Assembly (NCBI RefSeq): GCF_002632615.1
Contig: NZ_NITZ01000023.1
Coordinates: 5,284 to 69,283 of the forward strand
DNA: 64,000 nucleotides
Direction of reading: 5' to 3'
Origin: Xenorhabdus miraniensis
GTDB taxonomy: Bacteria; Pseudomonadota; Gammaproteobacteria; Enterobacterales; Enterobacteriaceae
A program made the position numbers and the translations under genes. Positions 6,134 to 27,320 of this stretch are shown here, one piece after another (the first letter of the stretch is position 1; each line of letters starts with the position of its first letter). The notes below the pieces were generated by a model. That model was given only the letters and a program-made list of their open reading frames with translations. It was not told the origin of the DNA and ran no database searches.

Positions 6134-6161
6134 TGTTCTTTCCTTAATAGAATAAGGATAA

Positions 6162-6184
6162 GGCTCCCGTATTGCACGAGAGCC
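6162..6184 (-). other. Stem-loop between tnaA and tnaB
   Basis: On the minus strand GGCTCTCGT and ACGGGAGCC form a nine-pair stem (one G-U pair) around a five-base loop, in the 65-nt tnaA-tnaB gap. No T-run follows, so it more likely protects tnaA mRNA or lowers tnaB expression than terminates fully. Confidence 0.5.
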
Positions 6185-6198
6185 GTTATTAATGATGG

Positions 6199-8359: not shown

Positions 8360-8642
8360 AAACAAAAATATATTATTAAACAATATATTAGTCGCGTGTA
8401 ATTACGAACTACCACAAAACTTATCTGCTGACGGTATCAGGAAAAAGTATCGCAATAGGATACATCGTACTCAACTATGACAAATAAAATACATAAGAAA
8501 GTTTTGTGAAAATAATTCAGGTATCTGTGATACTGAATGGGCATTACATATCAAATGCTATCGCAAATGATTATACCAAACCGTTATACTGTTCAAATTG
8601 TTCAAATTCCACCCAGAAAACCTTAATATTCTCAAGTAGTTA

Positions 8643-8671
8643 TTGACATACTATTAGTTATACAACATTAT
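8643..8671 (+). promoter_or_regulatory. Sigma-70-like promoter
   Basis: A perfect TTGACA (8643-8648), a 17-bp spacer and CATTAT (8666-8671, four of six to TATAAT). It points toward the short ORF at 8767 and the NRPS genes further on. It could drive a short transcript ending at the 9017-9052 hairpin or a long leader for the NRPS operon. Confidence 0.45.
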
Positions 8672-8766
8672 TAATATGTAAACTAATTGATTTAAATGTT
8701 GCATGTTTTATAAGTATTGGTCACAACTGCATCGCTGTTGTGTCTTTGTTGTTACTGATAGAGGTT

Positions 8767-8868
8767 ATGCAAGATTATGATGAAAGATCATTATGTAAAA
8801 TTCTTTCCCTGCGTTCATCACTCATGGCTGCAAGAATACAAAAACACTTTAACTCACTATTCATATAA
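8767..8868 (+). CDS. Possible 33-residue ORF, maybe a regulator remnant
   Basis: ATG at 8767 opens a 33-codon frame starting MQDYDERSLCKILSLRSSLM and continuing AARIQKHFN. Its composition and amphipathic helix look protein-like and resemble the first helix of MarR-type regulators, but it ends early at TAA. AGAGG lies only two bases before ATG, which is too close for good initiation. It may be a decayed regulator start or chance. A longer overlapping frame (8777-8986) looks less protein-like. Confidence 0.2.
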   Translation: MQDYDERSLCKILSLRSSLMAARIQKHFNSLFI

Positions 8869-9292: not shown

Positions 9293-12200
9293 ATGTTATT
9301 GCAAAAAATTGAGTATCACTTTTCTTATAATGCCGATAAGGTAGCGATTTATTCTAAAACGGACGCCATGACTTATGCACAATTGGCAACCAATTCTTAT
9401 AATATCGCGAAATCCATTAATCAGCGATTAGCTGAATCTGATTCTCTTATCGCCATTTTAATGAACAGACAGCCTGCTATTATTGCAACGCTTCTTGGAG
9501 TTATGCGATCAGGCAATGCCTATTCCATTGTGGAAGCAGGCAATAATCATCAAGAAACAATGGCAAGGTTGAATGCCATTCAACCGGATTTCATTATCAC
9601 TGACGAAGATAATGAAACGTTCGCAGAGGAAAGCGGTTTCCGTTGGATAACTTACCGTGCAGCAGCCTCTGACCAGAATGATTCAAGGCTTCCATTAATG
9701 CCAGAAGGTCACACTGTAGCCTATGTATTATATACTTCAGGTTCAACAGGAATACCTAAAGGTGTTGAGGTTAGTCATGATAACCTGACCCATTATTGTC
9801 GCTCATTAACTGAACAACTAAACTTAGCGCCTCATTTAACATATGGTCATGTCAGCACACTGGCCGCTGATTTAGGTAATACATGCCTGTTCTTATCTCT
9901 TTGGTCTGGTGGTTCGTTATACCTCGCCAGTGAATCAGAACGAAAAGATCCTGCTGCCCTTGCCCGCCTTATCGCTGACAAAAAAATCCAGTTTTTAAAG
10001 ATAACGCCAACCCATTGGCGACCTGTTCTAACAGCACTACAGGCTCAAAAGTATAATGAACCTCTTTTAGAATACCTGTTGTTGGGGGGTGAGGCCCTGC
10101 AAACAGAACTGGCTCAAACCAGCCTTGATCAACTGACAACACGACATTTAGTCAATCACTATGGTCCAACTGAAACGACTATCGGTGTCACAATCCATCA
10201 AGCTTCTCTTCAGGAGTTAAACGCTACCACCGAATTAACATTACCGATTGGTCAACCTTTCGGGTGTACTCAAATTCTTTTACGTAGGAATGATGGTGAA
10301 TTCAGCGACAAAGGTTCCATTGAAGGGGAATTATTCATCGGTGGCCCTTCTGTAGCAAAAGGTTACAGAAATTTGCCTCAGGCCAGTGCGGAGCGCTTTG
10401 TAGAACTCTCTGGTTATACCGGTCGGTATTACCGCACAGGTGACCGGGTTCGAAAAGAAGCTAACGGGACACTACATTTTCTCGGTAGGGTTGATAGACA
10501 GGTTAAAATTAAAGGTTATCGGGTCGAACTTGAAGCAGTAGAACGAGAAATACGTCACCTTGGCGGTGTCGATCATGCTGTCGCCTTCTGTCACCGTTAC
10601 AATAACCACGATTATTTATTGTGTGCTTACTCAGGCATCGCAAATAATATTGAGGCAATGCGCCATACTCTCAGTGAGCGTGTCCCTTCTTATATGATCC
10701 CTGCCCGCTTCGAATATCTTGGCAGTATGCCGATGACTCCCAACGGCAAAGTAGATTTAGCATCTATCAAGAAAATATTGATTGAAAATTTCGAACAGCG
10801 TCAGTCTAAAGAATCAATAGGCCCTGTCGGTAACCTTGCCGATAAATGCGAACAAGATGTTATACGCGCATTTAAAAAACAGCTTCAAGGCGTGATATTC
10901 ACAATAAATGATGATTTCTTCCAATTAGGAGGAGATTCGCTTGATGCTATTCAACTGGTGTCCGATTTACAGCTTCAGGGTTATCCTCTCACCGCACATA
11001 GTTTTCTTGCCCAACCCTCGGTACAAGGCGTGTTGACGAGTTTACGCAACTCGAATAATCATAAAACAACTCAACGTAAGAAACACAGTGAAGCAACTTC
11101 TTGTTCTCCTTCACAGCAATGGTTCTTCCGGCAAAATATGAAGGAGCCGAACCGTTGGACTCAGGCACTCGCTCTGGAAGCCGGTACCAAACTTGACCAC
11201 CACAAACTGAATACTGCGTTCATGCAGCTTGCTACAGAGCACCCCATGCTCACTGCACGCTTCTTCTGTAATGAGTTACAAGAATGGCAGTTTATTGCCG
11301 GCCAAACCAGCCAACAGCTATTTATCCACGAACGGCTCCACGATAACACGCCTGTCCGCTCTTGGTCAGAAAGAGAATCAGCCGTGCGTGAAGCTTATCA
11401 AAGGCTGGAATCACAATTAGACCTTCACACAGGTCAACTTTGTCGCGCTACCCTGCTTGATTTCTGCGACGGTCCATCAATCTTACTGTTGATCGCTCAC
11501 CATTTAGTCGTTGATATCATTACATGGCGATTGCTATTAGATGATCTGATAAGGCATTACGCAGTTGAAGCAGGTCTGGAAACTTCAACAAAGTCGTTCA
11601 ATATCAGCCAGTTTAATGACTGGTGTCAACATTTGGAATCTGAACGGAATTCATTCGTTAATGACCTCCATTACTGGCAATCACAGCCACAGATGGAAAT
11701 AACGGAATTAAATCCCGGACAAGAAAAAGATTCAAAAACACTATGGCTTGCCCTGACTGAACAGGAATCCAGTCATGTTAATCAAATTGCAGCCAAGAAA
11801 TGGAACTGCACGCTGGACAGATATCTGCTGGCTGCATTCCTTGAAGAAGCAGCGCAACTCAACGGAAAATCAGTTATCAATGTGGATGTAGAGAGTCATG
11901 GTCGTTTGTCACTGCGCTCTGATATTGATGTATCACGTACGGCTGGTTGGTTCACATCCATTTTCCCGCTTACATTCGACATAACTAAAGAAACAGATGA
12001 CACATTAGTCTCTATCGTCAACGACAGGATGAACGCACTCCCTCATCTGGGTACAGCTTATGGTCTGTTGCCAAGAACAATAACAAGTACCGCTCCGGCA
12101 GCACTCTGCTTTAATTATGCCGGGCAATTTAAACTTGGCATGAGAAATGACTGGCAGTTAACGCCAGCCGATGTTGCTCTCCCATCATTAAGAGGAACAA

Positions 12201-13624
12201 CGAATAGCCGCATACATGAGTTAAAACTCACTGGTCGTATGTATAAGCAGCAATTATTGCTGGACATCAATTTTAACAGTCAACAATACAATGATGAGCA
12301 AATGTTAGCGTGGGCACAGCGCTTACATGTTCGTTTGTTACGTCATATGCCTGTGGGCGGTAAAGGAAAACACCCCCCCATTCTGGATAACAACAACTCT
12401 GCCGGCGCTATCTGGAATCCACTGCCTGCTTTACTAACTCGCACAAAACAGGAAAAACAGCGTCAATATAAACAGATACTCCTTACAGGCGCGACGGGCT
12501 TCATTGGTATCCATGTTCTGCAAAAACTACTGGAACAAACGGATGCCTGCATTCACTGCTTAATTCGCCCCCGCACAGAAACAACCGCAGAACAACGTTT
12601 ACAAGAAGCATGGCAAGTATTCTTTGAACTAGAAACGCTGCAACGCCATAAAGATCGAGTTCAATGTCTCTCTGCTGATCTAGTTCAGCCAAATCTTGGA
12701 TTGACTCATTTAGTCTGGGAATCTTTAGGTCAAACCATAGACGCAATCTACCATTTTGCGGCTGATACAAAACTTGTAGGCAGTGGCAATACCGCTCATG
12801 ACAATATTCTCGCTCCGGTAAAAGGTTGTATTCACCTTGCGGAAACCGGCAAACCCAAAGATCTTCACTTTATGTCAACGCTCGCCGTGAGCGGTACTCG
12901 AAAAGGTAAACAGACAGGCTATTTCGATGAAACAAGTCTGGAAATAGGTCAAGAGTTTCAAAACAGCTACGAGCGATACAAGTACGACGCGGAAATTTTA
13001 GTACGTAATTTCGCTTATCAGGGTAGCCAAACATTTATTTACCGTACCGGAAATGTAACCGGACACTCTCAAAGCGGGAAATTCCAACGAAATGCCGCAG
13101 AGAACCGTTTAGTACAAAGCTTAAAAGGCATTGTCGCCCTGGGCCAGATCCCGCTTTCTTACGATGAGGAAATTGTTCTCAGTCCAGTCGATATCGTTGC
13201 TCATGGATTAGTCGCCCTATCTCTAGACACATCTCTAAATGGTGGAACTTTCCATCTGGATTCTGAATACGCATTACCAATACAAACGTTTATTAAGGTA
13301 CTGGAGCGATGTGGTGCTCAAATCGAAAAGGTGAATAGCCCTTCTCTGGAACACTTATTCCGTCAATCAGGCAGGTTAGATCATAAGGATATTGCCATCG
13401 GCTACTTCTGGTCAGCACGGGGTAATCGAAATATCCAATTCAACCATAGGAAAACACTGACGCACTTAGAGCGTCACGGTATTCAATTCAAACAACTTGA
13501 TCGGGAATGGGTCGAGAAATTCATCAAACATTTGCTGGATCAGCACGTTATCCAACCATTCTTGATTCATTCAACAAAAGAAAAAGCCACTGCTTGTCAT
13601 TCTGAAACTTTAGGAGCGTTATAA
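9293..13624 (+). CDS. NRPS with domain order A-T-E-R (adenylation, carrier, epimerase, reductase), predicted Asp
   Basis: A 1443-residue single-module synthetase. The A domain (1-500) shows YTSGSTGIPKG near 144 and NGKVDL near 484. By hand alignment its pocket reads D-L-T-K-L-G-H-I-G-K, one change from the known Asp code and three from Asn. The carrier domain has LGGDSL near 546; the D in place of the usual H is typical before an epimerase. Residues about 605-1020 carry all epimerisation motifs: SPSQQWFF, HHLVVDIITW, LDRYLLAAF, VESHGR, RTAGWFTSIFPL, PHLGTAYGLL and FNYAGQF. Residues 1060-1443 are an NAD(P)H thioester reductase (TGATGFIG, Y-x-x-x-K in YERYK). It should load Asp, invert it to D and release it as an aldehyde or alcohol. 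There is no condensation domain. The stop overlaps the next ATG by one base. Confidence 0.9.
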   Translation: MLLQKIEYHFSYNADKVAIYSKTDAMTYAQLATNSYNIAKSINQRLAESDSLIAILMNRQPAIIATLLGVMRSGNAYSIVEAGNNHQETMARLNAIQPDFIITDEDNETFAEESGFRWITYRAAASDQNDSRLPLMPEGHTVAYVLYTSGSTGIPKGVEVSHDNLTHYCRSLTEQLNLAPHLTYGHVSTLAADLGNTCLFLSLWSGGSLYLASESERKDPAALARLIADKKIQFLKITPTHWRPVLTALQAQKYNEPLLEYLLLGGEALQTELAQTSLDQLTTRHLVNHYGPTETTIGVTIHQASLQELNATTELTLPIGQPFGCTQILLRRNDGEFSDKGSIEGELFIGGPSVAKGYRNLPQASAERFVELSGYTGRYYRTGDRVRKEANGTLHFLGRVDRQVKIKGYRVELEAVEREIRHLGGVDHAVAFCHRYNNHDYLLCAYSGIANNIEAMRHTLSERVPSYMIPARFEYLGSMPMTPNGKVDLASIKKILIENFEQRQSKESIGPVGNLADKCEQDVIRAFKKQLQGVIFTINDDFFQLGGDSLDAIQLVSDLQLQGYPLTAHSFLAQPSVQGVLTSLRNSNNHKTTQRKKHSEATSCSPSQQWFFRQNMKEPNRWTQALALEAGTKLDHHKLNTAFMQLATEHPMLTARFFCNELQEWQFIAGQTSQQLFIHERLHDNTPVRSWSERESAVREAYQRLESQLDLHTGQLCRATLLDFCDGPSILLLIAHHLVVDIITWRLLLDDLIRHYAVEAGLETSTKSFNISQFNDWCQHLESERNSFVNDLHYWQSQPQMEITELNPGQEKDSKTLWLALTEQESSHVNQIAAKKWNCTLDRYLLAAFLEEAAQLNGKSVINVDVESHGRLSLRSDIDVSRTAGWFTSIFPLTFDITKETDDTLVSIVNDRMNALPHLGTAYGLLPRTITSTAPAALCFNYAGQFKLGMRNDWQLTPADVALPSLRGTTNSRIHELKLTGRMYKQQLLLDINFNSQQYNDEQMLAWAQRLHVRLLRHMPVGGKGKHPPILDNNNSAGAIWNPLPALLTRTKQEKQRQYKQILLTGATGFIGIHVLQKLLEQTDACIHCLIRPRTETTAEQRLQEAWQVFFELETLQRHKDRVQCLSADLVQPNLGLTHLVWESLGQTIDAIYHFAADTKLVGSGNTAHDNILAPVKGCIHLAETGKPKDLHFMSTLAVSGTRKGKQTGYFDETSLEIGQEFQNSYERYKYDAEILVRNFAYQGSQTFIYRTGNVTGHSQSGKFQRNAAENRLVQSLKGIVALGQIPLSYDEEIVLSPVDIVAHGLVALSLDTSLNGGTFHLDSEYALPIQTFIKVLERCGAQIEKVNSPSLEHLFRQSGRLDHKDIAIGYFWSARGNRNIQFNHRKTLTHLERHGIQFKQLDREWVEKFIKHLLDQHVIQPFLIHSTKEKATACHSETLGAL

Positions 13625-14379
13625 TGAAAAACCATCAAGTTATTGCTATCTCTGGTGCTACCGCTGGCATGGGCAAAGCAGTGTTAGATCTCGCCGCACA
13701 AAACCAAACCGACGTTGTCTTCAGTGGCCGCAGAGCTGAGCGTATTCGTCAAATCGAAGAAGAACATCAGCAAATGGGCCACAATGTTATGGGGCTATGT
13801 GCCGATGCGACTGAGAACAACCATTATGACCAACTCCACTCACTGGCAGAGCAAAAAATCGGTCAGGCACCTACTGCTTTTGTATTGAGCGCAGGGCGAG
13901 GATTGCCGGGGACACTGACGACTTCCGATTCAGGGCAATGGCAGGATCTCATTAACATCAATTTATTAGGTGCCATGCACCAATTACGTTCTTGTGCAGC
14001 CCTGTTTTCGCAACAAGCACTCGTAGAACCCAGAGTCCGGGACATTGTTGTGATAGGCTCAACGGTCGGCCGTACCGTATCAGCCGGAAATCCCGTATAC
14101 GGCGCCACTAAATTTGCCCTGCATTCTTTAGTTGAATCACTACGCCAGGAACTGTGCGGAAAACTCATTCGTGTCACATTAATCGAACCCGGTTTTGTCC
14201 ATTCAGAGTTTCAGGCTACCGCTGGATACAATATGGAATGGTTCGAACAGATAGAACGCGAGCAAGGGCCTTTCTTACACGCTCAAGATATTGCGGATGT
14301 TATTCATTTCGCTCTGGAACTGCCTGCCCATGTCCATGTCGATGATTTTCGCATTCGTCCAACCAGACAACGTGCCTGA
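13624..14379 (+). CDS. SDR-family NAD(P)-dependent oxidoreductase of the NRPS locus
   Basis: A 251-residue classical short-chain dehydrogenase. It shows the nucleotide motif SGATAGMGKAV (about 10-20), the central NLLGAM, catalytic Ser in VVIGSTVG and YGATK (Tyr-x-x-x-Lys, about 159-163). ATG overlaps the stop of the A-T-E-R gene (TAATG) and has its own TTAGGAG site, so translation is coupled. I infer that it reduces the aldehyde released by the reductase domain to an alcohol, or otherwise tailors the NRPS product. It could instead oxidise a hydroxyl group made by the monooxygenase domain of the next protein. Confidence 0.85.
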   Translation: MKNHQVIAISGATAGMGKAVLDLAAQNQTDVVFSGRRAERIRQIEEEHQQMGHNVMGLCADATENNHYDQLHSLAEQKIGQAPTAFVLSAGRGLPGTLTTSDSGQWQDLININLLGAMHQLRSCAALFSQQALVEPRVRDIVVIGSTVGRTVSAGNPVYGATKFALHSLVESLRQELCGKLIRVTLIEPGFVHSEFQATAGYNMEWFEQIEREQGPFLHAQDIADVIHFALELPAHVHVDDFRIRPTRQRA

Positions 14380-14464: not shown

Positions 14465-17400
14465 ATGATGGAACACATCTCATGCTCAAAACGACAATTA
14501 GTCGTTGAATTATTTGAAAGAAGCGCTGAGTGCCACGCCAATAAACCCGCTTTAATTAGCGCTCATGATACGCTGACCTTTAATCAATTAAATCAGCACG
14601 CAAACCAGCTCGCTTCTTTCCTGAGCAAAAAAGGTATTACCAAGGGAGATCCCGTTCTGTTCTGCTACGAACGCGGAGCGAATGCCATTATTTCATTAAT
14701 TGCATTACTAAAAATGGGTGCTTTCTATGTACCAGTAAATCCGGATTTTCCAAGCGATCGCATCGCAATGGTTGCTGAAGATGCGCAAACACACTTTGCG
14801 CTCACAGATACTGCAACATCACAGGCCCTTGATGGATTGGATATTGATGTCATCAACACCAGCACTCTTACACAGCTAGACCATTTTCCAACAGAAAATC
14901 CCGGCACAATATTGTCAGAAACAGACATTGCTTGGATCATTTATACCTCAGGCTCCACAGGCCGCCCCAAAGGCGTCATGGGCACGCATCTTGGGATGAT
15001 CAACCGGCTAGAATGGATGTGGCAGGCTCAACCCTTCCAGCCTGACGAAGTGTGTTTTCAAAACACCGCATTCACAACGGTAGACTCTTTCTGGGAAATT
15101 TTTGGCCCCCTTTGTCAAGGTGTGCCACTCCAGCTCTTGCCTGACAACGTCGTAAAAGATGCCAATTTGTTGGTACCCGCACTGGCACGTTACTCTATTT
15201 ACCGAATTTGCCTCGTGCCTTCCTATCTCAGCACCATGCTGACTATCTTCCCTGATCTCGGACAGCGTGTGCCAACCACTAAACTTTGGGTTGTGAGTGG
15301 GGAGTCATTAATTATCGATATCTGCAAACGGTTCTACGACAGCATGCCTGATGGCTGGCTATCTAACCAATATGGCCTGACCGAAAGCTGTGCAGATGTG
15401 ACCTATTTTGATACACGTTCACTGCCATTCACGCAATATGAAAGCGCCGGAGAGTTTTCTGTACCCATCGGTCGCCCAATAAACAATGTCCATTTATTTG
15501 TTCTTGATGAAAAAATGGTGCAAACGCCGATTGGAATCGAAGGCGAGCTCTATATTGGCGGAGACAGTGTATCAGCGGGTTATCTCCGCCAACATGAACT
15601 CACCCAGCAGCGGTTTATACCGATAGTCCCTGACTCGGATATTTCCCGACAACTGGGTTTTCACGGAATTTTACTGCGCACAGGCGATCGCGCAGCCTGG
15701 CGCCAGGATGGTGAACTGGCCTACCTTGGTCGTGGGGATGATCAAGTGAAGATGAACGGCTACCGCATCGAACTGGGTGAAATAGAATCCGTGTTACAAC
15801 GTCACCCCGATGTTCAGGACTCCGCTGCCACTGTTCAGCGAAACAGTCAAGGCCACCAGCGCCTGACCGCATTTGTCACCATTAAGCCGGATGCCATCGC
15901 GCGTTCACATACAATTCTGGCTGAAATACGCCAGTTGGTGGTTGCCAGACTGCCAGCCTATATGGTGCCTGGTCTTATATCATTTCTGGATGCCATACCG
16001 AAAACCAACTCCGGCAAGTTAGACCGTAAGGCTCTTGAACATCTGGTCGTTGATGTTCTTGCATTATCCCCCGATAAATATGTTGCCCCATCGGGTAAAA
16101 CAGAAATTTGGCTCAGTCATCACTGGTCAAAACTACTGGATATCACCACTATCAGTGCCGATACCAATTTCTTTACTCTGGGCGGCCACTCTTTGCTGGC
16201 AACACAATTACTGTCAGCCATCAACAAACAGTTTGGCATGGAGCTTAGTTTGCGGCGCTTCTTTCAGGCACCCACAATCCGTGCTTTAGCGACACAGATA
16301 GATAGCGCTTCAAAAACAGAACACCGCTCAGAAATAGTGATTCCGCGTCAGGCGATATCTGAAAAATACCCGCTGTCTTTCCCTCAGCAACGACTTTGGT
16401 TCCTGTCACAACTGATGCCCGATTCAGCGGTTTATCATATCCCCATCGCCTTTGAATTGAACGGCACTTTAGATATCAAACGGTTGCAACAGGCCTTCGT
16501 ACATGCCGCAAAATATCATCCATTGCTGCGTGCACGATTTATGCAAGAACATAATCAAGTAGTGCAAGTCTTAGCTAATGCGATGACGGAGCTAAAAGTC
16601 CAGCATTGTGAAGAGCTGGCAAACCTTGATAGAGCCAGTCTGCAAACCGAGTTGGCCCAATTGCTCAGTATTGAAGCTACACATACCATGGATTTGGAAA
16701 ATGAAGGCGGATTGAGAGCAACCTTATTCCAGATCCATGAGCAGAAGCATTATTTGGCACTGACTTTTCACCATCTTATTACGGATGGCTGGTCACTCAG
16801 CTTGTATCTTCGCCAACTGGGAGAAGCCTACAACGTGCAGTGTGAGGAAAAGACTTCACTTTCTACACCGCAAGATATCAGTTATTTTGATTTTGCCGTT
16901 TGGCAGCAGACGCAAATCATGTCATCGGATATCAACAAACAGCTTGATTATTGGAAAGCGCATCTGCAAGACAGTGATGCCCTTCTGCCTCTTCCAACAG
17001 ATATGCCCCGTCCTAAATCCACCACTTATCGTGGCGCATTGCACCAGAGCAGAATCAGTAAAGAGACGCTGGAATCTATCAAACAGTTAGGTCTGAAACA
17101 GGGTGCAAGCCCTTTCATGTCCTTAATTGCTGTTTTTTCCTGCTTGCTCGCCCGTTACAGCGGTCGGGAAGATATTATTGTGGGCACTCCGGCAGCCAAC
17201 CGTCATTATCCGGGTGTAGAAAATGTATTTGGCCTTTTCGTCAATACCGTTGTTATCCGCAGTGGGTGCCGTGGAGAGTTAACTTTCCCTGCCCTTCTGG
17301 AACAAGTACGGGATACCACGCTCACCGCGTTTGAAAATCAGGATGTGCCATTTGAAAAAGTGGTAGAAATACTGCAACAAGAACGTGATCTCAGCTTTAA

Positions 17401-20400
17401 CCCTATATTTCAGGTGATGTTCGATTATCAGCATCGGGATGAACTCCGGTTACAAATGCAAGGCATTCATAGCCAGCCATTGCTGGTGGATTCAAACAGT
17501 TCTCGTTTTGATTTATCGATGACAGTATTGGAAGACGATGATGGTGCCCAGATCAAACTGGAATACTCAACCGATCTGTTCCAGTCAGCGACTATCAAGC
17601 GATTCTGTGCAAACTTCAATACCCTATTAGATGCCATCGTACAGCAACCAAATGCTGCGCTGTACACCCATTCAATCACGAATACTGAAGAAAACAGAAC
17701 GTTATCACAATGGAATGAAACAAGTGCCGATTTCGATCCAGCGCGCAATGTCAGCGAAATATTCAGCCAGCAGGCAAGTATTCGTGGTGATGCCATCGCC
17801 GTAGTTTGTAAAGATCAGCAACTGAGTTACACAGAACTCGACAACCGTTCTAACCAATTAGCGCATTATCTTCGCACCAAAGGGGCAGAGCCTGACAAAT
17901 TGGTGGCGGTGTCGCTTGAACGATCTGTAGATATGGTCATCGCGCTGATGGCAGTGATGAAATCCGGTGCAGCTTATGTCCCGATTGATCCTGCATACCC
18001 CGCAGACAGAACCGAATACATGCTGACCCAGTCCAATGCCATTGTTTTAATCACCTCAGCTTCATTGAAAGATCAGCAAAACTGGCCGCAAGATAAAACG
18101 CTATTAATCGATACCAATTGGCCTGTTATTGCTGAATCAAGCAATTCTGCATTACCTGTACTTAGCAGGCCAGAAGATCTCGCTTACGTTATTTTCACAT
18201 CTGGCTCAACAGGCGCGCCAAAAGGTGTTCAGGTCATCCACCGCGGACTCAGTAATCTGCTTCTCGATATGCAGCAACGGTTGAGAATAACAGCAGAGGA
18301 TACCCTTTTGTCAGTCACGACGATCTCATTCGATATCGCCGGGCTAGAGCTATATCTGCCATTAATTTCTGGGGGTCAGTTACTGATTGCAGATAAAGAG
18401 GAAGCCGCTGACGGTGAACGGTTGGCAGAGCTTATCACAACAAGCCATTGCTCGATGATGCAAGCAACGCCTGTGACCTGGCGGCTCCTGTTAGAAGCAC
18501 ACTGGCAATGCCCGGCTGGATTCAAGATCCTTTGTGGCGGAGAAGCTCTCAGTGAAGAGCTTGCTCATTCACTCGTCGGCACAGGAGCTGAGTTATGGAA
18601 TGTATACGGACCAACAGAGACGACCATTTGGTCTACCGCGGAGCGACTGTATCCTGATTTTGATAAAATCACCATTGGCCGCCCTATTGCCAATACCACT
18701 ATCTATATCTTCGATAACCAGATGCAGCCAGTACCGATTGGGGTGATCGGCAATCTTTATATTGGTGGTGCAGGCTTAGCGCGTGGCTATCATCAACGCC
18801 CGGATTTAACGACGGAACGTTTTATTGAACATCCCTCGTTAGGTCGCCTCTATTTCACCGGCGATGTTGCACGGTTTTTAGCTGATGGCCGCATTGAATA
18901 TCTCGGCCGTTCAGACAACCAGATAAAATTGCGGGGCTTCCGCATTGAGTTAGGTGAAATTGAACAGTGTCTGGAACAAGCTCCGGCGGTAAAACAAGCA
19001 GTGGTTGTTCCTGTCAAAGGCCAATCTGGCGATACCAGTCTGGTTGCCCACATTATTCCAAAACATGAACACACATCCACAGCAATGGATTTCAGCCTGT
19101 TCTACTTCTCTGCGGGTTTCGAGACGTCGGCAAAAGAGAGCTATCAGCTTTATCTGGAAAGTGCAAAGCGGGCGGATGCCCTCAACTTTAAAGCAATATG
19201 GACACCAGAACGCCATTTCCATGCCGTAGGCGGTCAGTTCCCTAACCCTTCCGTTTTGGGCGCGGCTATTGCTATGATCACGAATAAGATCCAGATCCGT
19301 GCAGGCAGTGTCGTTCTGCCACTTCATAATCCGATACGGGTTGTTGAAGAGTGGGCTGTTGTCGATAATTTGTCTAACGGTCGGGTCGGATTGGCTTTTG
19401 CTTCTGGCTGGAACCCTAAAGACTTCGCACTATTGCCTGAGAATTTTGCTGACAGACGCGAAATCATGACCGAACACATTGAAACGGTCAAAGCGCTGTG
19501 GCGTGGCGAAGCAATTACTGTCAAAGATGGCATTGGTAATACTGGCGAAGTCAGCGTATATCCAAGACCACAACAGGCAGATCTGGAAACATGGATTACC
19601 GCAGCAGGCGATCCCTCTACTTTTGTAGAAGCGGGAAAAACAGGAGCCCATTTACTGACTCACCTTCTGGGCCAATCCGTAGAAGTTCTACAGGAAAAAA
19701 TAGCGCTTTATCGACAAACTCTACGGGAATATGGGCACAATCCAGCCGAAAAAACCATTACCTTAATGCTTCACGCCTTTGTCTGGAAGGATGAATCAGA
19801 CGCTGTGGAAATCTGCCGCAAGCCTTTCTCTGATTATTTGCGTGCTCATTTATCCCTCGAAAAAATGGCAAAATCCTTTGGTAAGGAGGAAATGTTCGAA
19901 ACAGAAGAAGAAGCGGAATCCATCATCGAGCTTGCGTTTGAAAGATATTCCAAAACGTCTTCACTCATCGGCAGCGTTGAATCTTGCTTGAATATGGTAC
20001 GCCAATTAAAAGAGATCGGTGTCGATGAAATCGCCTGTCTGGTTGATTTTGGTATCCAATCATCACTGGTATTGGAGGGACTTGATTATCTGGGGCAATT
20101 ACAGGAGAAAGCCAAAACCCTGTACTCAGTAGATCGCAACCTGCTGAAAGAACACATGCGCAGCCAGCTTCCTGATTATATGGTTCCGGCACACATTATT
20201 GTTGACCAAAGTTTCCCGATGACGTCCAACGGTAAAGTGGATCGCAAACGCCTTATTAAGGACACGCAAAAACAAGGGCTCATCCATATTGAAGAAGAAG
20301 AACGCCCTGCTCAAACGGATACTGAACATCGTTTAATATCACTATGGAGTGAAGTACTTGGTTTAGAAGTACGTAGTATCGGCGCAAACTTCTTTACTCT

Positions 20401-23400
20401 GGGAGGGCATTCATTACTCGCCGCACAGTTGATCGCAAAAATCCGCAGTTCGATGCAGATCAATTTGCCTCTGCGTGCAATTTTCGATGCCCCAACGATT
20501 ACTCAGTTGGCCCAAAAAATTGATGGATTGCTGGACAATAGCGTAAATCAGGCTTCCCCAACTCACACTGAGAGGACATCAGATTTACTCTCCTGCGCGA
20601 TTTCACGTGTTGCACCTTTATCATTTGCTCAAGAGCGATTATGGTTCATTTCCCGACTGCAACCAAATTCGCCGCTATACAATGTTCCTATCGCCTTTGT
20701 CTTAGAAGGTCTGTTAGACAAGCCTGCATTCGTTCGGGCATTTCATGAATTGTTGGTATCTCATGAAGTTTTCCGTTCAACGATTAATCAGGAGAATGAG
20801 CAACCTGCGCTGCATATCAGCGCCAACGCCCCTGATATCTTGCAATTTGTTGATGGTAAAGCGTTCGCCAATGATCAGCACTGGTTGCATAATCTCAATA
20901 TGTCGTTGCAAAGCGAAGCAATCCAACCTTTCGATATTGAGCATGGGCCACTTATTCGGGCCAGCTTGATAGAGATAAGCGCCACTCGCAATGTCTTTTT
21001 CATGAATGTTCATCATCTGATCTGGGATGGCTGGTCACGTACCCTCTTCCTGCATGAACTTGGACAACGATACAGCGCTATCATCGACAACAGATCGATC
21101 CCCATCGATAAGCAAGGACTGTGTTATAGCGAATTCGCTACTTGGCAACGTCAGTATCTCGCTAATCCAGATCTTCAACATCAGGCAGATTATTGGCGCA
21201 CTAAGCTATCCGGTGCCCCGGATTATTTAGCCTTGCCAACCGACTATACACGTCCGGCACAACTGGGTTATCACGGAAAAGTACTCAACTCCCGGATACC
21301 TTACGAAACCTATATGCAATTACGTAAATTAGGCGAACAGAGCGGTGCCACTTTATTTATGATGCTGCTTACCGCCTATAAGGCCCTGTTGTTCCGTCTG
21401 ACCACCCAAGAAGATCTTGTTGTCGGCGTTCCCATCGCTAACCGGCATTATCAAGGAGTTGAAAAAACCATTGGCCTGTTTGTTAACACCGTCGCTATCC
21501 GCAGCCAGTGTGCTCCTGAGATGCCATTCAGCCAATTCTTGGAAGTCGTCAAGGACAATACACTGGATGCTTATGAACATCAGGATATTCCGTTTGAACG
21601 AGTCGTGGAAATCTGTCAGGCTAAGCGCGGGCTTAACCAGCATCCGGTGTTTCAAACTATGTTTGATATGCAAAACGAAAATGAATGGCAACTGGATTTG
21701 CCTGATGTAAAAACCACGTTCTTCGAAGTCGACACGCAAATCGCCCGCTTTGATCTATTACTTGCCGTTAAAGAAGATAGCCACGGACTTGAGCTTGCTT
21801 TTGAGTATTCGACAGAACTGTTCCGTGAAGAGTCTATCCGTCACTTTGCTGACAGTTTCACTAACTTACTTCAGGCAATCTCGAACACGCCAAAACTGGC
21901 GCTGGCAAGCATACCGCTGCAAACAGGTTCGTTGTCCATGCCTATGACATCAATATCTAAGGCCGAAGGTAATGTTGTGTCGATCTTCAGGCAACAAGTC
22001 AACGCTAATCCTGATGCCATTGCACTCATCGCAGGAGAACGCTCAATCAGTTATGCTGAATTAGATGCAAAATCATCAGAACTTGCAGACTTCCTGCAAC
22101 TCAAAGGCGTTTCGTATGAAACACCGGTCGGTATGTTGTTACGCCCTTCGCCAGAAGCCATTGTCACGATTCTGGCAATACTTAAAGCGGGGGGAATGTA
22201 CGTCCCTGTTGATAATGACTATCCAATAGAAAGAATTAATCTCATCCTGAACGATGCGAAAGTGCGATGTCTGATTACTGACAATGACACAAAGGACAAA
22301 TGTAAAGCGTTTGAGGGTGAAATCATCTATCTAAACTCAATTAACGAGTTGCCTTACGCTGAAGGTGCCATTTCTGAAGCTATCTCTGAGCAGATAGAGA
22401 TAAAGCAGGACAATCTGGCCTATGCTATTTATACCTCCGGTTCCACAGGCCTGCCCAAAGGCGTTTGTGTTGAACACCAAAGTATTATAAGGCTGGTGAA
22501 AGAAAACGGTTTTCTGGATATATCGCCAGAAGATCGGATTGCTCTCGCATCCAGTCTGGCATTCGACGCTGCCACATTTGAGATTTGGGGAGCACTACTC
22601 AACGGTGCTACGTTGGTCATTTTGGATAAAACAACCGTGCTGGACCCTCACAAATTGTTCTCCGCCATTCGTGAAGCGTCTCTCAGCGTGATGTGGTTAA
22701 CATCCAGCCTATTCAATCAACAAATCTCCGCTGTCCCGGATATGTTCCGGCCATTGCGTGCTCTCATTATTGGTGGTGAAGCCTTGAGCGTTCCGCATAT
22801 CCGAGAATTGTTAAATAGCGGAAAAGGGCCAGAAAAACTCATTAACGGTTATGGACCAACCGAAAATACCACTTTCTCAACAACATATGATATTACCAAC
22901 CATAAGAATGACTTCGTACGAGGAATTCCTATCGGGCGCCCAATCAATAACACTTGTGCCTTTATTCTGGATAAGCAATTAAACCCATGCCCTGTCGGTG
23001 TTGTCGGTGAATTGTATTTCGGGGGACAAGGTCTGGCTCGTGGTTATCTCAACCGACCAGAGTTAACCCGCGAGCGCTTTATTGAACTTCGCACAACAGA
23101 TAACCTCTCTTTGCGATTGTACAAAAGTGGTGACTATGCCCGATATCTCTCCAGCGGTGATATTGAATATCTCGGCCGAGCAGATGATCAAGTGAAACTT
23201 CGTGGTTTTAGGATCGAATTAGGGGAAATTGAAGCCGCCATGCTGACATATCCCGGCATTCACGCCGCAGTTGTTGTCATGCTCCAAGAGGAAAAGGGTG
23301 ATAAAGAGCTGGCCGCTTACTTTTGTACCAATGTAACGCCAACACCTGAATGGATCAGACAGCTCCGACAAGCACTTTCAACACGTATTCCAGAATTTAT

Positions 23401-24505
23401 GATCCCGGCATCTTTTACGCCTGTTGATGAGATCCCGCTCAACGCGTCTGGCAAACTTGAGCGCCGTCGTTTACCTGCGGTTTCTCGTCTGCAACTCAAA
23501 GACAATGCTTACCAAGCACCTCGTACGCATATTGAGCGAGCGTTAACCGAGTCTTTCCAGGAGGTTTTGGGACTGGAGCAAGTAAGTATTACCGATAATT
23601 TCTTCCAGATTGGAGGCCACTCATTACTCGCCTTGCGACTTATTGTCGCTATCGAAAATAAGTTGGGTAAGCCTGTACAAATCATAGATATTTTCCAGCA
23701 CCCAACACCAAAAGAGCTGGCAAAAATCTTTGATGAAGTGACGCTGGGTCCAGACAAAGAAATCTTGTTAACCATTTCAGAAACGGATTCCGATGAAGCT
23801 ATTTTCCTTGTGCATCCTGTTTTTGGTTTGGCGTTTCCATATCTTGCCCTGAGTAAACGTATGTCGGGCAAACGTATCTTTGGATTAAATAACCCTACCT
23901 TTGGTCAAAAACAGGGGCGTTTTATCAGTATAGAACAACAAGCTGAGCACTATGTTGCAGCAATTCGCAAAGTACAACCCAACGGGCCTTACCATTTAGG
24001 AGGATGGTCTTATGGTGGCGTAATTGCTTATGAAATGGCTCAACAGTTGCGTACCATGGGTCAAGAGGTTGAAATGCTTGTCCTGATAGATAGTTTCTTT
24101 GCATCAAATCGCCATTGGCAACAACCTGATGAGATCGCGTTGAACGACTTTATGTCTAAGGAGGGCGTTGATCCTGAGAGTACATTTGGTAAAGCGTTCT
24201 CGGTTGAGTTACAGCACAATCCAGAATTGCTGATGAACTATCAGCCGCGTCCTTACGTGGGTCGGGTCGTACTGATACAAGCGTCACAGAAACGAGAGCA
24301 CAACAATCCGCTTATTTTTGACAATCTTGTTAATCATTGGGAAGCGTTAGTTGAGGGTGAATTTAGCACCTATCGCATTAACGCTACCCATGATGATATT
24401 TTTAAGGAAGATAATATCGAGGAAACAGCGGATATCCTCAAACAGGTATTTGCCCAACAAGGTGCTTTATCTGAAACCAATATACTCATCAGTGAAACAG
24501 AGTAA
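14465..24505 (+). CDS. Three-module NRPS with luciferase-like monooxygenase insert: A-T-C-A(LLM)-T-C-A-T-TE
   Basis: A 3346-residue synthetase. A1 (1-520; YTSGSTGRPKG near 160) has hand-read pocket V-D-W-C-V-S-Q-A-D-K, like known beta-alanine codes lacking Asp235. T1 (LGGHSLL near 571). C1 (636-1070; HHLITDGW near 769). A2 (1090-1930) reads D-I-L-Q-L-G-V-I-W-K, one change from a known glycine code. After its RGFRIELGEIE motif it is interrupted at about 1540-1880 by a flavin-dependent luciferase-like monooxygenase (WTPERHFHAVGGQFPNPSVL, GLAFASGWNP) before resuming at NGKVDRK (1922). T2 near 1979. C2 (2051-2480; HHLIWDGW). A3 reads D-A-F-W-I-G-G-T-F-K, a valine code. T3 near 3050. The thioesterase (3110-3346) has Ser in GGWSYGG and His near 3310. 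Predicted backbone: beta-Ala-Gly-Val, with oxidation at Gly. Confidence 0.9.
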   Translation: MMEHISCSKRQLVVELFERSAECHANKPALISAHDTLTFNQLNQHANQLASFLSKKGITKGDPVLFCYERGANAIISLIALLKMGAFYVPVNPDFPSDRIAMVAEDAQTHFALTDTATSQALDGLDIDVINTSTLTQLDHFPTENPGTILSETDIAWIIYTSGSTGRPKGVMGTHLGMINRLEWMWQAQPFQPDEVCFQNTAFTTVDSFWEIFGPLCQGVPLQLLPDNVVKDANLLVPALARYSIYRICLVPSYLSTMLTIFPDLGQRVPTTKLWVVSGESLIIDICKRFYDSMPDGWLSNQYGLTESCADVTYFDTRSLPFTQYESAGEFSVPIGRPINNVHLFVLDEKMVQTPIGIEGELYIGGDSVSAGYLRQHELTQQRFIPIVPDSDISRQLGFHGILLRTGDRAAWRQDGELAYLGRGDDQVKMNGYRIELGEIESVLQRHPDVQDSAATVQRNSQGHQRLTAFVTIKPDAIARSHTILAEIRQLVVARLPAYMVPGLISFLDAIPKTNSGKLDRKALEHLVVDVLALSPDKYVAPSGKTEIWLSHHWSKLLDITTISADTNFFTLGGHSLLATQLLSAINKQFGMELSLRRFFQAPTIRALATQIDSASKTEHRSEIVIPRQAISEKYPLSFPQQRLWFLSQLMPDSAVYHIPIAFELNGTLDIKRLQQAFVHAAKYHPLLRARFMQEHNQVVQVLANAMTELKVQHCEELANLDRASLQTELAQLLSIEATHTMDLENEGGLRATLFQIHEQKHYLALTFHHLITDGWSLSLYLRQLGEAYNVQCEEKTSLSTPQDISYFDFAVWQQTQIMSSDINKQLDYWKAHLQDSDALLPLPTDMPRPKSTTYRGALHQSRISKETLESIKQLGLKQGASPFMSLIAVFSCLLARYSGREDIIVGTPAANRHYPGVENVFGLFVNTVVIRSGCRGELTFPALLEQVRDTTLTAFENQDVPFEKVVEILQQERDLSFNPIFQVMFDYQHRDELRLQMQGIHSQPLLVDSNSSRFDLSMTVLEDDDGAQIKLEYSTDLFQSATIKRFCANFNTLLDAIVQQPNAALYTHSITNTEENRTLSQWNETSADFDPARNVSEIFSQQASIRGDAIAVVCKDQQLSYTELDNRSNQLAHYLRTKGAEPDKLVAVSLERSVDMVIALMAVMKSGAAYVPIDPAYPADRTEYMLTQSNAIVLITSASLKDQQNWPQDKTLLIDTNWPVIAESSNSALPVLSRPEDLAYVIFTSGSTGAPKGVQVIHRGLSNLLLDMQQRLRITAEDTLLSVTTISFDIAGLELYLPLISGGQLLIADKEEAADGERLAELITTSHCSMMQATPVTWRLLLEAHWQCPAGFKILCGGEALSEELAHSLVGTGAELWNVYGPTETTIWSTAERLYPDFDKITIGRPIANTTIYIFDNQMQPVPIGVIGNLYIGGAGLARGYHQRPDLTTERFIEHPSLGRLYFTGDVARFLADGRIEYLGRSDNQIKLRGFRIELGEIEQCLEQAPAVKQAVVVPVKGQSGDTSLVAHIIPKHEHTSTAMDFSLFYFSAGFETSAKESYQLYLESAKRADALNFKAIWTPERHFHAVGGQFPNPSVLGAAIAMITNKIQIRAGSVVLPLHNPIRVVEEWAVVDNLSNGRVGLAFASGWNPKDFALLPENFADRREIMTEHIETVKALWRGEAITVKDGIGNTGEVSVYPRPQQADLETWITAAGDPSTFVEAGKTGAHLLTHLLGQSVEVLQEKIALYRQTLREYGHNPAEKTITLMLHAFVWKDESDAVEICRKPFSDYLRAHLSLEKMAKSFGKEEMFETEEEAESIIELAFERYSKTSSLIGSVESCLNMVRQLKEIGVDEIACLVDFGIQSSLVLEGLDYLGQLQEKAKTLYSVDRNLLKEHMRSQLPDYMVPAHIIVDQSFPMTSNGKVDRKRLIKDTQKQGLIHIEEEERPAQTDTEHRLISLWSEVLGLEVRSIGANFFTLGGHSLLAAQLIAKIRSSMQINLPLRAIFDAPTITQLAQKIDGLLDNSVNQASPTHTERTSDLLSCAISRVAPLSFAQERLWFISRLQPNSPLYNVPIAFVLEGLLDKPAFVRAFHELLVSHEVFRSTINQENEQPALHISANAPDILQFVDGKAFANDQHWLHNLNMSLQSEAIQPFDIEHGPLIRASLIEISATRNVFFMNVHHLIWDGWSRTLFLHELGQRYSAIIDNRSIPIDKQGLCYSEFATWQRQYLANPDLQHQADYWRTKLSGAPDYLALPTDYTRPAQLGYHGKVLNSRIPYETYMQLRKLGEQSGATLFMMLLTAYKALLFRLTTQEDLVVGVPIANRHYQGVEKTIGLFVNTVAIRSQCAPEMPFSQFLEVVKDNTLDAYEHQDIPFERVVEICQAKRGLNQHPVFQTMFDMQNENEWQLDLPDVKTTFFEVDTQIARFDLLLAVKEDSHGLELAFEYSTELFREESIRHFADSFTNLLQAISNTPKLALASIPLQTGSLSMPMTSISKAEGNVVSIFRQQVNANPDAIALIAGERSISYAELDAKSSELADFLQLKGVSYETPVGMLLRPSPEAIVTILAILKAGGMYVPVDNDYPIERINLILNDAKVRCLITDNDTKDKCKAFEGEIIYLNSINELPYAEGAISEAISEQIEIKQDNLAYAIYTSGSTGLPKGVCVEHQSIIRLVKENGFLDISPEDRIALASSLAFDAATFEIWGALLNGATLVILDKTTVLDPHKLFSAIREASLSVMWLTSSLFNQQISAVPDMFRPLRALIIGGEALSVPHIRELLNSGKGPEKLINGYGPTENTTFSTTYDITNHKNDFVRGIPIGRPINNTCAFILDKQLNPCPVGVVGELYFGGQGLARGYLNRPELTRERFIELRTTDNLSLRLYKSGDYARYLSSGDIEYLGRADDQVKLRGFRIELGEIEAAMLTYPGIHAAVVVMLQEEKGDKELAAYFCTNVTPTPEWIRQLRQALSTRIPEFMIPASFTPVDEIPLNASGKLERRRLPAVSRLQLKDNAYQAPRTHIERALTESFQEVLGLEQVSITDNFFQIGGHSLLALRLIVAIENKLGKPVQIIDIFQHPTPKELAKIFDEVTLGPDKEILLTISETDSDEAIFLVHPVFGLAFPYLALSKRMSGKRIFGLNNPTFGQKQGRFISIEQQAEHYVAAIRKVQPNGPYHLGGWSYGGVIAYEMAQQLRTMGQEVEMLVLIDSFFASNRHWQQPDEIALNDFMSKEGVDPESTFGKAFSVELQHNPELLMNYQPRPYVGRVVLIQASQKREHNNPLIFDNLVNHWEALVEGEFSTYRINATHDDIFKEDNIEETADILKQVFAQQGALSETNILISETE

Positions 24506-24562: not shown

Positions 24563-24591
24563 TATTTATAAATTTGAGCAAGGATGTAAAT

Positions 24592-26028
24592 TTGAATAGA
24601 TACCTTCGAATAAAAAATATGATTCAGCCCCCTGATTGGCTGGACGATATACGTTCCATTCTGATACTTGCGATTCCGTTAATTATTTCTCAATGTGCGC
24701 AAAGCGGAATTTTATTCATCGATACATTACTGATGGGGAAACTCGGCCCACAGGCATTGGCAGCAGGTGCATTGGCTATTTCGGCATTTTACTTATGCTA
24801 TATATTGTCATTCGGCGTCATCTCCGCTGCCGGCAACCTGGTTGCCATCTATCATGGCGCAGGCCGACGCCGTGATATTGTTTCTGCCATTCGTTGTGGA
24901 TTACTTCTTGCACTGCTTTTATCTTTTGGAATGGGAATACTCTTGTGGAATATTACCCCACTGATGTTGATGCTTGGACAACCACCAGATACAGTGGAAA
25001 TGGCTCAGGAATTTTTGTACATACTCGTTTGGGGGATGCCATTTGGCCTTTTATTTCTCGCATTGAGAGGATTCACCGCCGGCATTGGTAAACCGGGCCC
25101 TATTCCCTTCATTATGTTCAGTGCACTTATCCTCTCCGGTAGTTTAGGGTGGATTTTATCCAAAATGATGGGGATATGTGGTATCGCCATTGCTTCTGCC
25201 ATTACATATGGTTATATGGGAATTATATTCGTTGTGGTTCTATGCCTGCATCCCGACTACAAACGCTATCCAATCTTTACCCGATTAACCCGCAAAGACT
25301 TAGCTACCATGCCCGAACTCCTTAAAATTGGGATACCTACCGCGGGAACTCTTGGTCTGGAAAATAGCTTGTTTAATGGCTGTGCCTGGCTAATGGGCGC
25401 TTTAGGTGCTATCACGCTGGCTGCTCATCAAAGCCTCATGCAATTGGTCATCACAGGTTTCACTGTGCCACTGGGTCTGATGTATGCAGTTTCCATGCGT
25501 GCAGGGCAAGCTTCAGGTGCTGGAAACTGGCATAAAGTACGTAACTTATCCTGGATTGGAAATGCCTTAATCCTATTATGGTCATCATTGGCTATCTCAA
25601 TCTTATTGCTGATCCCAAATGAATTATTGTCCCTTTTTCTACCTTCAGATGTAAATCAGGCAACTGAGGCCAAAAATATAGCGTTAATGTTAGTGCCGTT
25701 TGCTGCCCTGCTATGCTTGCTGGATGGTTGGCAAACAATGGTATGTGGACTTCTCCGTGCTCTCAAGGATGCACAAGTTACGGTTATTATTTCTGGAGTA
25801 AGTTATTGGGGAATTGGATTACCCATCGCATGGTGGCTATCGCAATATTCTCTCGGCCCTGCGGGTGTATGGTGGGGCATGTGTACCGGATTGTTTATCG
25901 CTTGTCTTGTAATGCAAATCCGGTTGCGAATGCTGTTACGGCATCAGAAGACAACGTTCTCTGCAACAGCAAAATGCCCTGCTTCAAGAGCAACTGCATC
26001 CCTGCCTACAGCAGGACATGATTGCTAA
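24592..26028 (+). CDS. MATE-family efflux transporter with altered C-terminus
   Basis: A twelve-helix inner-membrane exporter of the MATE family, predicted to use a cation gradient. Family features are visible: SQCAQSGILFIDTLLMGKLG (helix 1-2) and GMPFGLLFLALRGFTAGIGK, with a matching second half (GALGAITLAAHQSLMQLVI). I prefer the TTG at 24592 as start, because AAGGA lies seven bases upstream; an upstream TTG at 24574 and an ATG at 24619 have no good site. It follows the NRPS genes on the same strand, so product export or self-protection is a natural inference. The last roughly 28 codons (after RLRMLLRH) are read out of frame through a fragment of another gene, so the native C-terminus appears replaced. 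Transport helices seem complete. Confidence 0.82.
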   Translation: MNRYLRIKNMIQPPDWLDDIRSILILAIPLIISQCAQSGILFIDTLLMGKLGPQALAAGALAISAFYLCYILSFGVISAAGNLVAIYHGAGRRRDIVSAIRCGLLLALLLSFGMGILLWNITPLMLMLGQPPDTVEMAQEFLYILVWGMPFGLLFLALRGFTAGIGKPGPIPFIMFSALILSGSLGWILSKMMGICGIAIASAITYGYMGIIFVVVLCLHPDYKRYPIFTRLTRKDLATMPELLKIGIPTAGTLGLENSLFNGCAWLMGALGAITLAAHQSLMQLVITGFTVPLGLMYAVSMRAGQASGAGNWHKVRNLSWIGNALILLWSSLAISILLLIPNELLSLFLPSDVNQATEAKNIALMLVPFAALLCLLDGWQTMVCGLLRALKDAQVTVIISGVSYWGIGLPIAWWLSQYSLGPAGVWWGMCTGLFIACLVMQIRLRMLLRHQKTTFSATAKCPASRATASLPTAGHDC

Positions 26029-26339: not shown

Positions 26340-27218
26340 TCAGTCAATTTGTGATGCGTTGAATTGATGTGTTGGTTTAACTATCTTATCTTGAGCAGCA
26401 ACGAGCTGTAATTCAAACTCCTCACTTTTTTGCGTTTCCAACATCACTTCATAAACTGCCGCTGCAATATGTTCTAATGCAGCTTGTAGTGCTACGTTTG
26501 TCAAAGATGGGCTTTTCAATAGATTGACGAGGAATAAGCCACTGGTTAAGTCACCAACACCAACTGGTTGACGCACTCCTGTATCAATCAATGGGCGACT
26601 AACATGCCAACTATGTTCTTTAGTCACTAAGAGCATTTCAAAACAATCTGTTCGGTAACCTGCACGGCTTAAGTGCTTAACTAACACTATCTTAGGGCCT
26701 TTTTCACATAATTCACGCGCTGCGGATATGGCTTGTTCTACATTTTCAATTTTCCGCATAGCCAGTGTTTCAAGTTCCAGTAAATTAGGCGCAATAATAT
26801 CACTGACGGGTAATACCTTCTCACAAAAAAATTCAGCAACACCGGATGCAACAATACATCCCTTTTCTGGGTGTCCCATGACAGGATCGCAGAAATACCA
26901 TGCTTCAGGATTAGCTTTCTTAACCTGCTTCACAATATCGAGAATATGATTCCCCTGCTCCGCAGAGCCGATATAACCACTCAGAACAGCATTGCAGGAT
27001 GCCAATTTATCAATTTCGCTAATCCCCCGCACAATTTCTGTCAGATGTTCTGGCGGCATTACACACCCACGCCATTGAGGATATTGGGTATGGTTAGAAA
27101 ACTGCACCGTATTTAATGGCCATACGTTCACTCCCATACGCCTCATAGGAAAAACAGCCGCGCTGTTTCCCGCATGACCAAAGACTACATGAGACTGAAT
27201 TGAAAGAATATTTTTCAT
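26340..27218 (-). CDS. pdxY: Pyridoxal kinase PdxY
   Basis: A 292-residue ribokinase-fold kinase of the PdxY/PdxK family that phosphorylates pyridoxal in the PLP salvage pathway, close to the 287 residues of E. coli PdxY. The start [20 protein letters not shown], the substrate-side [14 protein letters not shown], the [10 protein letters not shown] segment and the anion-hole motif [12 protein letters not shown] are all present. It lies downstream of tyrS and pdxH on the same strand, the order known in E. coli (pdxH-tyrS-pdxY). A strong hairpin after tyrS separates it, so it may have its own promoter in the 27219-27277 gap. Confidence 0.95.
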
Positions 27219-27277
27219 TATAAGGCCTAATTTATATTTTAAGATCCGTGAGTAGCTGATAAAGATGCCAGATACTT

Positions 27278-27303: not shown

Positions 27304-27320
27304 AATAACATCTTTATGAA

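Follow-up and report, generated by a model that had tools for sequence, protein, structure and literature searches.

A free-standing A-T-E-R synthetase of Xenorhabdus and its coupled reductase are predicted to supply (R)-beta-homoserine to a neighbouring peptide synthetase

What is gained by epimerising an amino acid that is about to be released by reduction? This question is raised by ATER, a protein encoded at 9293-13624 of a 64,000-nt stretch of Xenorhabdus DNA (the whole of this stretch is referred to as the window), in which adenylation (A), carrier (T), epimerisation (E) and thioester reductase (R) domains follow one another on a single polypeptide. Downstream lie genes for a short-chain dehydrogenase/reductase (SDR) and a nonribosomal peptide synthetase (NRPS; Table 1). 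A sequence-only reading of the locus had proposed that ATER makes a reduced D-aspartate unit. The sequence anatomy and the fit of the SDR agree with this, while the unit itself would be better read as (R)-beta-homoserine than as an odd D-Asp end product. We hold, with moderate confidence, that ATER and the SDR make (R)-beta-homoserine from L-Asp, and that this beta-amino acid then becomes the starter of a beta-homoserine-Gly-Val-type peptide.

The domain order carries much of this proposal. Pfam places AMP-binding at residues 13-358, PP-binding at 536-580, a condensation-superfamily stretch at 603-1014 and NAD_binding_4, above its own cut-off, at 1064-1304. The condensation-superfamily stretch is the only one in the protein, lying between PP-binding and NAD_binding_4, and this order, together with the motifs HHLVVD, RTAGWFT, FNYAGQF, VESHGR, LGGDSL and TGATGFIG, bears out the A-T-E-R arrangement without a condensation (C) domain and the LGGDS-type carrier that had been read by eye. 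Because the name of PF00668, which we take to be a superfamily model covering both C and E, does not separate the two, the profile search for C, E and R domains left the middle domain ambiguous and a finer call was needed. The middle piece was compared by sequence with solved structures, and its ten best matches (E 2e-42 to 4.9e-29, with the next at 5.6e-6) comprised four to PvdL, four to tyrocidine synthases and one each to bacitracin synthase 3 and gramicidin S synthase 1. The E motifs hhlvvd, hGR, GWFTS and fNY.GQ are visible in the alignments to bacitracin synthase 3 and two PvdL entries; the matched stretches of the other seven are presumably E domains too, and four weaker matches are presumably C regions. 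These matches and motifs rule out a condensation domain and indicate that the middle domain, closer to E than to C, is an epimerase, in which HHxxxD and the catalytic Glu are present. TIGR01720, which we take to be a companion of E domains, scores 36.6 bits, below its cut-off of 74.2. As the sequence-only reading had also anticipated, the next domain is a reductase, with matches to MxaA (2.6e-32), the AusA reductase and further reductase domains, a Rossmann G-rich motif (TGATGFIG) and the Thr-Tyr-Lys residues. TIGR01746 stays short of its cut-off on this domain (184.4 bits against 213.35; E 3.6e-54), as does TIGR01733 on ATER (310.7 bits against 317.4). The E domains of the initiation modules of GrsA and TycA act on aminoacyl-T before a downstream C domain. 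The E domain of ATER resembles them, in that it would act right after the A domain on aminoacyl-T and counts them among its best solved relatives, but in ATER what follows is a thioester reductase in the same protein and not a C domain.

The identity of the activated amino acid was read from the A domain. Codes were extracted by a script with motif anchors, for which we assume the GrsA numbering, and for ATER the script reproduced the pocket that had been aligned by hand, DLTKLGHIGK. In the available part of PMC10391617, DLTKVGHVGK is listed as Asp, with OH-Asp in the product, and according to the part of PMC12283262 at hand this code is found in Asp and some Asn domains, most sequences favouring Asp. 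An Asp-type pocket in ATER is thus supported by its code. A protein search returned 1084 relatives of ATER at E<=1e-3, of which the best 120 were analysed; these are the nearest ones, so the remainder may differ. Both the A-T-E-R order and the Asp-type code are found in 119 of the 120, the exception being P0010 (822 aa), which is without A and T. The A3 motif lies at residue 110-168 in 119 of them, which leaves no C domain in front. The idea that A-T-E-R is a one-off arrangement is refuted by this spread, and the named sources include Paraburkholderia, Burkholderia plantarii, Pseudomonas, Vibrio, Polyangium, Streptomyces, Kitasatospora and Amycolatopsis. In an alignment of 124 proteins (the window protein, the best 120 relatives and three plasmid proteins), DLTKxGHxGK is read in all 123 that have an A domain. 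The E positions H, H, D and Glu are kept in 123, 124, 124 and 124 proteins, and the R positions Thr, Tyr and Lys in 123, 124 and 124. The epimerase is therefore under selection, which is most easily explained if the stereocentre survives to the product. Closer to home, Xenorhabdus hominickii DSM 17903 has a relative 89% identical to ATER. In genome draws around this species, where at most two candidates were scored per genome among those listed, an ATER at E<=1e-130 was found in 1 of 369 genomes (class) and 1 of 398 (phylum), in each case only in X. hominickii (G001), the centre of the draw. The cassette is rare around Xenorhabdus.

The SDR, whose coupling to ATER had been pointed out from the sequence, starts with an ATG that overlaps the ATER stop (TAATG). 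It belongs to NF038213 (SDR_TniO_fam), for which the library line gives no reaction, scoring 330.5 bits over a curated cut-off of 300; the Paraburkholderia phymatum and Rhizobium leguminosarum SDRs score 367.1 and 319.4. Of 449 SDR relatives at E<=1e-40, the best 120 were analysed. Co-location with ATER was judged by a proxy, an identical size of the longest contig with one contig per protein, and by this raw count 36 of the best 120 ATER relatives pair with a member of the SDR list. Among 72,556 plasmid records, the SDR occurs at E<=1e-30 in two, from P. phymatum and R. leguminosarum, respectively. At least 80% of ATER is covered in three records, of which these two are C-less and the third, from Nostoc, lacks the SDR at this threshold. 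The genome draws returned the SDR once in 30 genomes of the genus (E<=1e-40) and once in 394 of the order (E<=1e-45), again in X. hominickii alone. The picture that this SDR family travels with ATER, which the sequence-only reading had missed along with the wide sharing of the arrangement, is supported by these pairings. The cluster behind the TniO name was not found in the literature, and the available part of a diazeniumdiolate siderophore paper (PMC6771848) makes no mention of a tni cluster; the name suggests that such a cluster has been described, and the novelty could therefore be lower. A C-terminal DDxRIRPTRQ is identical in three distant members of the family and might bind a carboxylate.

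Two other fates of the ATER product bear on the role of this SDR. Since R domains release aldehydes (PMC7586950, in the part available), the unit used could be the aldehyde 3-amino-4-oxobutanoate, with the SDR acting on another intermediate. Here the SDR substrate is itself only predicted, and the R. leguminosarum cluster also holds a second SDR and a thiamine pyrophosphate (TPP) enzyme, but one SDR family accompanies ATERs amid quite different neighbours, which makes the ATER product its expected substrate, and we judge the aldehyde reading improbable. The same portion of that paper describes ATRed of Xenorhabdus indica, a minimal A-T-R synthetase that converts Phe to a pyrazine. ATRed is like ATER in being C-less, free-standing and releasing a single amino acid reductively. 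It differs in its aromatic substrate, its pyrazine product and its lack of an E domain, and a coupled SDR is not mentioned in the text consulted; ATER, with an E domain between T and R, falls outside this minimal class. By analogy, two molecules of an amino-aldehyde freed by ATER could combine into a pyrazine, in which case the SDR and NRPS would serve otherwise. We likewise give this little credence, because pyrazine formation would destroy the stereocentre and make the conserved epimerase pointless, and the SDR coupled to and travelling with ATER speaks against it.

In the route we prefer, the A domain would adenylate the alpha-carboxyl of L-Asp and load it onto T, the E domain would turn L-Asp-S-T into D-Asp-S-T, and the R domain with NADPH would release (R)-3-amino-4-oxobutanoate. 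The translationally coupled SDR would then reduce the aldehyde to (R)-3-amino-4-hydroxybutanoate, that is, (R)-beta-homoserine (L-series beta3-homoserine). Alpha-activation is implied because a route through the beta-carboxyl would end in ordinary aspartate semialdehyde, with no task left for the E domain. Ranked by hand under the Cahn-Ingold-Prelog rules, the order NH2 > C1 > CH2COOH > H holds for COOH, CHO and CH2OH alike, and as it is unchanged on reduction, D-Asp would give the R alcohol. By the same hand reasoning, the R form of HOCH2-CH(NH2)-CH2-COOH corresponds to L-serine with CH2COOH replacing COOH. In essence, the presence of the epimerase would be explained by D-Asp giving, on reduction, a product of the L-serine series. 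The free beta-amino acid would be activated by A1, the first A domain of the next NRPS, as the N-terminal unit; Gly would follow, as the target of an inserted monooxygenase, with Val third, and the peptide would be released by a thioesterase (TE) and exported via a MATE pump. We infer every chemical step, the stereochemical outcome and the use of (R)-beta-homoserine by A1 from what can be read in the sequences themselves: domain order, active-site residues, the Asp-type code, gene pairing, and the code and clade of A1.

Pfam and motif positions suggest the order A1-T-C-A2(monooxygenase)-T-C-A3-T-TE for this NRPS. A2 reads DILQLGVIW(R), its last position being unreliable owing to the insertion, and A3 reads DAFWIGGTFK; we take the first to be Gly-type and the second to be Val. 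Gly domains with such a monooxygenase read DILQLGMIWK (PMC12283262, in part). The TIGR04020 monooxygenase of the window sits in the middle and not the terminal module, and may hydroxylate the Gly alpha carbon. The NRPS has its own TE, which bears on another possible role for ATER, that of a terminal module which releases the NRPS peptide in trans and leaves it with a C-terminal D-aspartal. A C-A-T-E-R protein with an Asp-type code does exist in Nostoc, with two condensation-superfamily stretches, but the window ATER has no C domain and the A domain is N-terminal in 119 of its best 120 relatives as well, and we consider such a role very unlikely.

How A1 would recognise a beta-amino acid is suggested by its code, VDWCVSQADK, in which Val occupies position 235 and Asp235 is lost. 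In beta-Ala domains Asp235 is likewise replaced by Val, with the code VDWVISLADK. Cyanobacterial codes of the VDW type include VDWVISLANK (Nostoc) and VDWIISLANK (Chroococcidiopsis). A1 shares with such domains Val for Asp235, Asp at 236 and Trp at 239, but differs from them in forming a clade of its own with the code VDWC[VI]SQ[AS]DK. Exactly the same ten residues as in A1 are found in the X. hominickii counterpart and in an NRPS of R. leguminosarum, which a plasmid search with A1-T recovered among its best matches, at 39% identity (712 plasmid records hold an A1-like domain; the code was looked up in ten, that of H27 being unreadable). The Rhizobium NRPS has 2859 relatives; among the best 120, VDWC[VI]SQ[AS]DK was read in 13, including the Rhizobium protein itself (P0241), and P0248 was the only one without a readable A motif. 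In a FastTree phylogeny of 40 A domains, these 13 proteins and the window A1 form one clade (local support 0.999), placed beside the VDW-type domains, with the DVWHxSL domains lying apart. An A1 domain with a probable beta-amino-acid-type code, common to the Rhizobium ATER cluster, is new here and was likewise missed by the sequence-only reading.

The two plasmid loci show how the cassette is set among other genes. In R. leguminosarum, the SDR lies 1.8 kb from the ATER, divergent and with another SDR between them, and the VDWC NRPS lies 3.7 kb from the ATER. Genome draws at E<=1e-130 returned this NRPS in 1 of 369 genomes, X. hominickii (G001) only, and the DNA of the cluster matched its own plasmid only. 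Further genes encode an A-T-R synthetase, a TPP enzyme, a dioxygenase, a phosphopantetheinyl transferase and serS. The A-T-R protein is a second reductive synthetase, with the Asn-type code DATKVGEVGK (L002:7299-10397). At E<=1e-40, serS (L002:19476-20786 in this cluster) is present in 87 of the 72,556 plasmid records, and among the 14 others listed the closest is 37.6% identical; because the predicted unit mimics L-serine, self-resistance through this copy is an attractive guess. In P. phymatum, the SDR directly follows the ATER. Upstream lie a divergent ATP-grasp gene resembling D-Ala-D-Ala ligase (L001:16456-17529) and a MATE gene; the ligase-like product scores 147.4 bits against a cut-off of 245.65, far below Ddl cut-offs, and is a possible dipeptide ligase. 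Given these genes and the lack of an NRPS nearby, this species may ligate the amino acid or export it in free form. A close relationship between the window and P. phymatum MATE pumps was rejected, with 24% identity over 277 residues. The Nostoc protein mentioned above, from Nostoc sp. UHCC 0926 (L005:13546-19431), carries its second condensation-superfamily stretch in front of the A domain, giving C-A-T-E-R. Among the best 120 relatives, the two longest ATERs, P0041 and P0049, have ~300 extra C-terminal residues (about 1450-1754). These are not ATER-SDR fusions, since no SDR match at E<=1e-5 was found in any of the 120, and the extension gives no Pfam match at E<=0.001; by eye it looks like a dioxygenase of the PhyH type, and hydroxylation of the product may thus occur in some pathways.

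Several observations weigh against the route to a beta-homoserine-started peptide. DLTKVGHVGK overlaps with Asn domains (PMC12283262, in part). The substrate and direction of the SDR are predictions, and a fusion to the SDR is seen in none of the best 120 ATER relatives. The R. leguminosarum ATER is 28% identical to that of the window and, as a query, matched only itself in plasmids (E<=1e-100), so the two are distant. The codes given here for beta-Ala (VDWVISLADK), Gly and Val found no match in a text search of the literature. Within 20 kb of the P. phymatum pair there is no NRPS (no other open reading frame (ORF) of at least 250 aa has an A3 motif). Contig sizes, checked for the first 55 proteins of the Rhizobium NRPS list, all 13 VDWC proteins included, tie one of these, P0261, to an SDR, P0158 (both 58673, a proxy for co-location); the other 12 have no match to the best-120 ATER or SDR lists, and two non-VDWC relatives also share contig sizes (10548 and 7475). 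VDWC domains near ATER and SDR are thus certain only in Xenorhabdus (the window and X. hominickii) and R. leguminosarum, with perhaps a third lineage, and because 12 of the 13 could not be tied to either gene we lowered our confidence very slightly. Together with the resemblance of the A1 code to those of VDW-type cyanobacterial domains, these 12 proteins and the P. phymatum pair favour another arrangement, in which ATER and SDR still make (R)-beta-homoserine, while the A1 substrate is beta-alanine or a different beta-amino acid and the product is used elsewhere or freed. It is less favoured, though the strongest of the alternatives, since the exact code and clade of A1 recur near ATER and SDR in R. 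leguminosarum and four of the ten residues of VDWCVSQADK are not those of the Nostoc code VDWVISLANK, position 322 being Gln where Nostoc has Leu.

Table 1. Features of the ATER locus, in window coordinates
Feature	Position	Strand	Basis or remark
ATER, free-standing A-T-E-R synthetase, Asp-type	9293..13624	+	single 1443-aa ORF, exact limits
ATER A domain	9293..10792	+	code DLTKLGHIGK
ATER T (carrier) domain	10865..11062	+	LGGDSL; limits approximate
ATER E (epimerisation) domain	11099..12334	+	
ATER R (thioester reductase) domain	12473..13546	+	Thr-Tyr-Lys positions kept
SDR, NF038213 (SDR_TniO_fam), predicted aldehyde-to-alcohol reductase	13624..14379	+	330.5 bits, cut-off 300
NRPS with 3 A, 2 C, 3 T, 1 TE and inserted monooxygenase; predicted product user	14465..24505	+	Pfam, motifs
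A1, predicted beta-homoserine-activating starter A domain	14492..16054	+	code VDWCVSQADK
FMN luciferase-like monooxygenase (TIGR04020) inserted in Gly-type A2	19091..20101	+	468.6 bits, cut-off 244.45
MATE exporter, probable product export	24574..26028	+	suggested by position
Conserved upstream non-coding stretch (X. hominickii, X. indica)	8598..8862	+	blastn

The surroundings of the cluster differ in part between species. The conserved stretch upstream of ATER is 87.9% identical to X. indica over 265 bp and lies within a 78.5% match of 8502-8862 to X. hominickii. A promoter-like TTGACA-17-CATTAT at 8643-8671 is a consensus match only, seven such sites being found against 9.8 expected, which is not above chance, and Rfam gave no match upstream of ATER. 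In X. indica, only a broken ATER remnant accompanies this stretch (L004:9974-11014, a 347-aa frame), with pieces that match window positions 9400-9480 and 10522-11014. To the left of the window cluster are an aromatic amino acid permease and a tryptophanase-like lyase (4886-7602), and to the right a kinase and a tyrosyl-tRNA synthetase (26340-28604). Neither flank is matched in the X. hominickii sequence compared (38 kb), and the cluster therefore sits between partly different flanks in the two. The tyrosyl-tRNA synthetase gene (27321-28604) was considered as a self-resistance gene and rejected, as it lies in the order pdxY-tyrS-pdxH, the order found in E. coli. The available part of a Xenorhabdus/Photorhabdus genome-mining paper (PMC10676414) gave no lead.

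The predicted product of ATER and the SDR is the same molecule as a plant immune primer. In the portions of the sources available, (R)-beta-homoserine is called synthetic in one review (PMC12680377) and xenobiotic in another (PMC9528079), and is described as entering plants by LHT1 and not being perceived by IBI1 (PMC10933464); none of these portions describes its biosynthesis. A search of the open-access literature for an NRPS or gene cluster linked to beta-homoserine, also under the name 3-amino-4-hydroxybutanoic acid, turned up no biosynthesis, which is not proof, and one on the A-T-E-R architecture gave nothing relevant among the papers listed. It is hypothesised, tentatively and at somewhat less than even chance, that free (R)-beta-homoserine is made by a pair of genes scattered patchily across Proteobacteria and Actinobacteria, root-nodule bacteria among them, and that some clusters incorporate it into small serine-mimic peptides via the VDWC[VI]SQ[AS]DK clade, explaining the Rhizobium serS as self-resistance. 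If the proposed route is correct, there would be a clear reason for an epimerase ahead of a reductase and a candidate beta-amino-acid code for A domains, while ATER, the NF038213 SDR and a VDWC A domain together would form a genetic tag by which to search for serine-mimic peptides. The small size of the cassette allows it to be tested in E. coli. It would also provide a natural enzymatic source of a compound known for priming plant immunity, with an ecological role that could be tested in root bacteria.

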